The notes beneath the pieces were generated by a model, which worked only from the letters and a program-made list of their open reading frames with translations, was not told the origin of the DNA and searched no databases. The translations under genes were made by a program, and so were the position numbers. A stretch of 34,180 nucleotides of DNA from an uncultured SAR86 cluster bacterium (lineage in GTDB: Bacteria; Pseudomonadota; Gammaproteobacteria; Magnimaribacterales; D2472): the NCBI GenBank assembly GCA_902517425.1, contig CABYCI010000010.1, positions 1 to 34,180 on the forward strand, read 5' to 3'. This document shows, in pieces, positions 28,897-30,241 of this stretch; position 1 is the stretch's first letter; the number at the start of each line of letters is the position of its first letter.

Positions 28897-29694
28897 TTGG
28901 AAAAGGGAGAAAATTTATCATTCTCAAAAGAGGTTGCTGAAACGTTAGGATTAGAATGTGCGATTATTCTTAATTTATTTAAAGAAATTGAGTCAAGTGA
29001 TATTTCATCACAAGACAGATTGTTGGCTTATGCAGTCAATGCCCTTCCTTTCATTGACCCTCTAAAAATCAAAAAATCAATTGATAAGCTAAATCAATTT
29101 AATCTAATTGATTTTGATAAAGAATCATCAAAAAAAGACTATGTAATCAAAAAGCCGACTAAGAATTTAGAATCTCGACAGATAGACCCAGACTGGCAAC
29201 CGTCAGAGGATACTCTTGAAATAGTAAAAATGACTTCGATTTCTAATGATTTCATGAACCTTAAATTAAAAGAATTTAGAATCTATTGGACAGAAAGAGG
29301 ACAGAAAAAAAATAATTGGAACATAACTTTCTTAGATTTCATTAGAAGAGAATGGGCGAAAGAAAATAACTCAAATAAAGGCCTGCCATATACCATTAAT
29401 GAAAAATGGTTCCCTGATGAAGATGTCTTTGATATTTTGAACTTATCCGATATATCAAGAGATTCTGCGTTAAAATATTTAAGAGAATTTATTCTATATT
29501 GGAAAGACAAAGGAGCTGCTTTTACAACGTGGAATTCTAAATTTATTGATCACGTCAAAAGACGACACATGATTAATGCTAATATGAGTAATAATGAAAA
29601 AAATAAGGAATATATTGAGCCAGGAAAATATACAAAAGATTTCAAAACAAGAAAAAATGACACAACTTGGGCAAACGAAATTAGCCTCGACTAA
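28897..29694 (+). CDS. DnaT-like protein with N-terminal winged-helix-like region and two tandem DnaT-type ssDNA-binding domains; TTG start
   Basis: 265 aa; repeats PDWQPSEDTLEIVKMTSISNDFMNLKLKEFRIYWTERGQKKNNWNITFLDFIRREW and EKWFPDEDVFDILNLSDISRDSALKYLREFILYWKDKGAAFTTWNSKFIDHVKRRH match the W-P-(x)n-eF..YW...G....W...F DnaT-domain pattern. Confidence 0.7.
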   Translation: MEKGENLSFSKEVAETLGLECAIILNLFKEIESSDISSQDRLLAYAVNALPFIDPLKIKKSIDKLNQFNLIDFDKESSKKDYVIKKPTKNLESRQIDPDWQPSEDTLEIVKMTSISNDFMNLKLKEFRIYWTERGQKKNNWNITFLDFIRREWAKENNSNKGLPYTINEKWFPDEDVFDILNLSDISRDSALKYLREFILYWKDKGAAFTTWNSKFIDHVKRRHMINANMSNNEKNKEYIEPGKYTKDFKTRKNDTTWANEISLD

Positions 29695-30241
29695 AGAAGA
29701 TTTAATTAAATCAATTGATTCCTTGTTCTTAAAACTTGAGCTTGCGTATCATTATCAATTTTATAAAGTTTTTGGTACTGATGATAAATTAAAAGAAGGT
29801 AAAAAACTTTGGGCGGTTAGTTTAAAACATATTTCCTCAGAAATAATTCTTGAGGCAATTGAAAATGTTATAAGCTCTCAATCATACCTTCCAACGCTGA
29901 CTGATTTGCTGAAAGCTTGCAATGATATAAATAGAAAAGATGGATTTCCCTCTTTAGAAGAAGCATATTTTGAAGCAAGAAGGTCTTATCAACCTAGAAA
30001 AGATTTTAACTGGACGCATCCAATTGTTTATTTTGCTGGAAAAAAAACTGGTTGGAATATACTTGATGAAAAAGATTCTAATCTAAGCCTTCAAGTTTTT
30101 AGAAAAAATTATATGTACTTAAAAATGCAAGCACAAAATGGAACGGAATTTAAAATAAAAAGTGATTCGGATAACAATGAGAAGTTAGAGCCATTCAATA
30201 GAGATTTATTTAAAAAACTTAGAAATAAATTCAAAGTCTAA
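29657..30241 (+). CDS. Phage lambda P-like helicase-loader protein
   Basis: MTQLGQTKLASTKEDLIKSIDSLFLKLELAYHYQF...LKEGKKLWAVSLKHISSEIILEAIENVISSQSYLPTLTDLLKACND...FPSLEEAYFEARR...NWTHPIVYFAGKKTGWNIL...VFRKNYMYL resembles lambda P / P-like loaders. ORF-track start is 29594; ATG 29657 is preferred because it has the smaller overlap with the upstream gene. Confidence 0.65.
   Translation: MTQLGQTKLASTKEDLIKSIDSLFLKLELAYHYQFYKVFGTDDKLKEGKKLWAVSLKHISSEIILEAIENVISSQSYLPTLTDLLKACNDINRKDGFPSLEEAYFEARRSYQPRKDFNWTHPIVYFAGKKTGWNILDEKDSNLSLQVFRKNYMYLKMQAQNGTEFKIKSDSDNNEKLEPFNRDLFKKLRNKFKV

Follow-up and report, generated by a model that had tools for sequence, protein, structure and literature searches.

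Two overlapping genes in a housekeeping neighbourhood

A segment of SAR86 chromosome carries two plus-strand genes, here called A and B, that encode a protein with tandem DnaT domains and a putative helicase loader resembling lambda P. The whole stretch of DNA that was analysed, 34,180 nucleotides on contig C10, is referred to below as the window. It belongs to a 935-kb, 60%-complete genome whose relatives are SAR86 cluster bacteria. The features of the locus are as follows.

28897..29694, plus strand: gene A, tandem-DnaT protein and O/DopC-like partner, 265 aa, TTG start (PF17948, synteny, dN/dS about 0.13-0.2)
28921..29106, plus strand: N-terminal domain of A, about residues 9-70, predicted helical, winged-helix-type (AlphaFold)
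29179..29376, plus strand: DnaT domain 1 of A (PF17948, E 9.8e-19)
29395..29568, plus strand: DnaT domain 2 of A (PF17948, E 1.7e-17)
29594..29694, plus strand: overlap of A and B, 101 nt, in different frames (ORF coordinates)
29594..30241, plus strand: gene B, lambda-P/G39P-like putative helicase-loader protein, 215 aa (PF06992, phrog_109, Foldseek)
29678..29935, plus strand: helical N-terminal domain of B, residues ~29-114, G39P-like (AlphaFold, 1no1, profile)
29954..30136, plus strand: second domain of B, with the motif W(S/T)HPIVYxAGKKxGW (alignment); deleted in one SAR86 genus (L162-L165)
30200..30238, plus strand: C-terminal tail helix of B, LFKKLRNKFKV, proposed DnaB-binding element (predicted helix 203-212)

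The original prediction had placed two adjacent plus-strand genes here, next to housekeeping genes that included DAHP synthase and an RND pump. The ORF coordinates agree, with one correction: the two genes overlap by 101 nt. An overlap occurs in every sampled locus that has both genes, and 101 nt is the commonest length. The surroundings are also as predicted. On one flank lie a rluB-like gene, scpB, scpA and DAHP synthase, and on the other an HlyD-type adaptor and an AcrB-type pump; the remainder of the window is likewise housekeeping, and no phage gene was found in it.

A tandem-DnaT protein and its lambda P-like partner

Protein A matches the DnaT model PF17948 twice, with a full-length E-value of 1.5e-35 (121 bits, cut-off 25). 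Upstream of the two DnaT domains, AlphaFold predicts helices at residues 11-17, 19-31, 39-49 and 55-67, a block with pLDDT 67-88. From its sequence pattern we infer that this N-terminal domain, for which no PDB match of its own was obtained, is of the winged-helix type. The best PDB match of the A model, which is weak overall (pTM 0.34), is the DnaT84-153-ssDNA structure 4ou6 (Foldseek TM(target) 0.61, prob 1.00). In the Pfam search neither A nor B matched the DciA model PF05258 or contained an AAA+ IstB-type ATPase domain, and A did not match the Phage_rep_O model.

The order of domains in A, an N-terminal helical domain followed by DnaT domains, is also that of the phage O-like proteins of L169 and L187. 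Together with that of L189, these carry one C-terminal DnaT domain and are encoded next to a P gene, which suggests that A is an O-type protein in which the DnaT domain has been multiplied. The prediction that the first gene encodes DnaT-type domains stands; its further statement that the protein is DnaT-like rather than clearly O-like is amended, in that the layout of A is O-like.

The kinship of protein B with lambda P, also predicted, was recovered by profile and by structure comparison. Window B scores just below the 26-bit gathering cut-off of the Phage_lambda_P model PF06992 (E 1.5e-5, 25.3 bits) and matches the phrog_109 family 'P-like helicase loader' with an E-value of 1.2e-14. When B homologues were scanned singly, all 38 matched PF06992 at E <= 0.01 (best 1.5e-11), and 10 of the 38 also matched PF11417, Inhibitor_G39P. 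With phage P proteins included, the profiles match lambda P at E 6e-9 and 1.2e-10, the latter with alignment A8 of the N-domain. P proteins from phage contigs share 19-31% identity with window B.

The AlphaFold model of B is of moderate quality (pLDDT 77.6, pTM 0.49) and consists of a helical N-domain (29-114, a block with pLDDT 76-92), a second domain (121-181), a linker and a C-terminal helix (203-212, pLDDT ~80). The top Foldseek matches in the PDB were lambda P in its DnaB complex, 9oa1_Z (TM 0.52/0.50, prob 1.00), for the model and SPP1 G39P, 1no1 (TM(target) 0.81, rmsd 2.0, 69 columns), for the N-domain. No Foldseek match of A or B passes E 0.001; the N-domain also finds G39P by profile (E 2.7e-4). 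Judged by its sequence profiles and predicted fold, B is distantly related to lambda P.

Marks of a resident gene pair

Is the pair a settled part of the chromosome? A was found in 51 of 60 SAR86 relatives; these 51 include members of all 11 genera and of each of the four families, f1 to f4. B is present across f1 and f3. In the f1 and f3 loci that we read, the order is constant: DAHP synthase, A, B, RND adaptor, RND pump. In the f2 and f4 loci it is DAHP synthase, A, RND adaptor; B is missing, and profile A1 found no B elsewhere in f2 or f4 genomes. Both genes, compared between the window and its relatives outside the overlap, have dN/dS of roughly 0.1-0.2 and evolve under purifying selection. 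In the B tree, SAR86 f1 and f3 form one supported clade (97/84) with one branch per family. No sampled SAR86 locus, whatever its family, has prophage genes beside A/B. Constant synteny, low dN/dS and monophyly of B are what a resident gene would show; the pair is vertically inherited and lies outside any mobile element. The preference in the original prediction for a resident chromosomal pair over a prophage remnant is therefore upheld, and its proposed checks found an order-wide, syntenic rather than sporadic distribution and no flanking phage genes.

Profile A4 found no A in the f4 genomes G044, G053 and G059. A DAHP synthase query, used without a positive control, likewise had no match in these three, which makes it more probable that a segment is missing than that A alone was lost. 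One of them, G044, is a one-contig genome of 1.0 Mb (G044:C1). A defence system was also considered and rejected, as PADLOC gave no match.

No standard helicase loader found in SAR86

The original prediction proposed to check whether the full genome lacks dciA, dnaC and dnaI; profile searches found none of them in SAR86. The DciA model PF05258 matched in 0 of 60 SAR86 genomes, many of which are incomplete MAGs or SAGs; the same model matched in 188 of 232 gammaproteobacteria, almost all of which have genomes at least 90% complete. With the IstB/DnaC ATPase profile we found no DnaC/DnaI-type ORF in SAR86. Its matches there were ORFs of the size of DnaA, Lon and ClpX, and those of the rest that we read proved to be PhoH and adenylate kinase; all were rejected as DnaC loaders. 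We thus found neither standard loader of the DNA helicase in SAR86, a group that appears from these profiles to do without both. Within the class sample of 232, all five genomes with a tandem-DnaT protein lack DciA (hypergeometric 2e-4, kinship ignored).

Shrinkage of B and a B-like tail on A

B is not the same protein everywhere. In genus g12 of family f1 (L162-L165) it has only 142-147 aa: the WSHP-containing second domain is missing, and the N-domain joins the C-terminal tail, LEKLRKKHxI, directly. G181 has a similarly shortened B of 169 aa. In G321 (L159:3871-5028) a 385-aa fusion combines two A-type N-terminal domains with a B N-domain and a tail-like end; the protein has no DnaT domains. 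The genome is DciA-negative, and such a fusion in such a genome links A with B.

What became of B in f2 and f4? The SAR86 B tail, with consensus LRKKxx[VIL], forms the extreme C-terminal end of the protein. A scoring matrix built from 47 non-redundant B tails finds a B-like tail at the end of 13 of 13 f2/f4 A proteins, with scores of 7.2-17.7. The maximum is -1.2 in a background of 1064 other ORF C-termini and -13.9 among A proteins of loci where B is still present. A PDB search with the tail sequence alone matched only designed repeat proteins and did not find lambda P.

Species relations within SAR86 were taken from two single-gene trees and the family labels; both trees, of DAHP synthase and the RND pump, place f4 together with f1 and apart from f2. 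Since B is present in f1, f3 and outgroups, it would have been lost independently in f2 and in f4, and the truncation in g12 would likewise be independent. Since two families manage without it, B itself is not required by all SAR86. In f2 and f4 the loader seems to be reduced to a short tail on its partner protein. That f2 and f4 each dropped the folded B and kept only its C-terminal DnaB-binding peptide on A, so that loading would proceed without a folded loader domain, is a tentative reading, to which we give somewhat less than an even chance.

A proposed loading mechanism and its alternatives

We consider it probable that A and B are the resident helicase-loading pair of SAR86, replacing DciA and DnaC/DnaI in the manner of DopC/DopE, with a tail hook and with A acting alone in f2 and f4. 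This proposal draws on homology, predicted fold, synteny, selection, the absence of DciA, DnaC and DnaI, and the conservation and relocation of the tail. A would coat or mark single-stranded DNA at the origin, at stalled forks or at both through its tandem DnaT domains. B would bind both A and DnaB and place DnaB on the A-marked strand, with its tail helix as the hook that engages the helicase. In f2 and f4 the tail-bearing A would recruit DnaB directly. Three published observations suggest this division of labour: a lambda P helix, tentatively assigned to the C-terminal segment, adjoins the linker helix of DnaB (PMC6391071); the LH-DH site is common to DciA, DnaC and lambda P (PMC9912922); and the C-terminal domains of DnaT form filaments on ssDNA that mark the loading site (PMC13377028).

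That the tail binds DnaB we infer by analogy with lambda P. It might instead contact A or SSB, with DnaB in f2 and f4 loading without a loader and the tail serving otherwise; those families do have no other known loader. Yet the tail outlasts the second domain of B and is found at the end of A in families that have lost B, a setting in which an A-B contact is needless, and it is the helix tentatively placed in the corresponding segment of lambda P that engages DnaB. We regard this alternative as unlikely, if still to be reckoned with.

A second alternative, which we rate lower again, confines the pair to a PriA-type restart primosome and leaves loading at oriC to DnaA with an unrecognised loader or to a self-loading DnaB. 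A does carry the DnaT domains of a protein that in E. coli acts in restart (PMC13377028), but we found no other known loader, and among its holders the pair coincides with the absence of DciA. A restart role would in any case leave A/B a helicase-loading pair; the two readings differ in where loading occurs, not in what is done. The last alternative, that A/B are phage O/P genes in decay that do nothing for the host, starts from the kinship of B with phage P and from phage contig L169, where P adjoins a one-DnaT O-like protein, and is rejected with near certainty on the order-wide synteny, the low dN/dS, the lack of flanking phage genes, the monophyly of SAR86 B by family and the finding that no phage in INPHARED encodes an A-like protein.

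Relation to known loaders

How does the proposed loading pair compare with known systems? Lambda P (9oa1, 8v9t, 6bbm) resembles B in predicted fold and in the sequence profile of the N-domain, but B is chromosomal, is under host selection and is partnered by a tandem-DnaT protein instead of lambda O. SPP1 G39P (1no1, PF11417) shares the N-terminal helical domain, and at 126 aa is about the size of the truncated g12 B; unlike B, it serves a phage-encoded helicase, and most SAR86 B proteins have an extra central domain. E. coli DnaT shares the ssDNA-binding DnaT domain with A but has only one, differs in its N-terminal domain and acts together with PriA/PriB and DnaC.

The closest parallel is DopC/DopE, which Brezellec et al. 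reportedly described in 2017 (GBE 9:1561) as a domesticated pair derived from lambda O and P in bacteria without DciA and DnaC/I. Likened by description, both systems place a resident P-like gene next to one that is O-like, in SAR86 by layout, in genomes with neither DciA nor DnaC/I. What may set SAR86 apart is the tandem array of DnaT domains in A and, in some lineages, the erosion or loss of B with retention of its tail. The pair fits a variant of the DopC/DopE kind, a domesticated helicase-loading module, rather than a proven member. A paper that cites this work puts DopE beside DciA as the alternative to loaders of the AAA+ class (PMC13326638). The paper on DciA from 2016 lists Thiotrichales and three Oceanospirillales species without both loaders (PMC5109545).

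SAR86 is among the most abundant bacterial groups of the surface ocean. In the papers searched we found no report that connects SAR86 with DnaT and none on replicative helicase loading in SAR86. In the limited literature accessible to us, we know of no report of a relocated B tail, and the erosion of B with its tail kept or moved onto A looks new. If our reading is true, phage-type genes have taken the place of loaders also in a major order of marine bacteria and in relatives of that order. The series found in nature, from full B through two-part B and A-B fusion to tail-only A, points to the part that a P-type loader cannot do without, and it opens a long-standing question to study with peptides. 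Must a folded loader open the DnaB ring, or is it enough to tether DnaB to a platform bound to ssDNA?

The pair outside SAR86 and its phage kin

A/B also occur in further marine gammaproteobacteria, among them OM182 and genomes assigned to Pseudomonadales, mostly in another, stable housekeeping setting; in G219, of a distant family, A again lies directly downstream of DAHP synthase. DciA was found in 0 of 15 genomes checked by locus, including 0 of 11 outside SAR86 (L130-L140); of the other four, two carry the name SAR86, and L128 and L129 are placed inside family f1 by the B tree. The number of DnaT domains varies among holders. A has three in f2, most of f3, G181, G219 and the non-SAR86 holders, and two in f1 and f4, so that the change follows the f1+f4 clade (A alignment: L031-L055, L131-L140, L153, L154).

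P-like genes in other contexts were also met. Those of L155, L156, L160 and L161, in DciA-positive genomes and beside an O-like protein of ~300 aa with the motif LSGLPYxxQ, probably lie in mobile elements and were set aside from the pair. A different pair, O-like (325 aa) and P-like (262 aa), lies among seemingly chromosomal genes in the DciA-negative genome G371 of family f91 (L157:3458-5210 / L146) and may be another domesticated O/P lineage. Lastly, a phage P-like protein with no DnaT partner (L168:3016-3588, IMGVR_UViG_3300003318_000003) branches with weak support beside the SAR86 B clade and is possibly kin of the donor.
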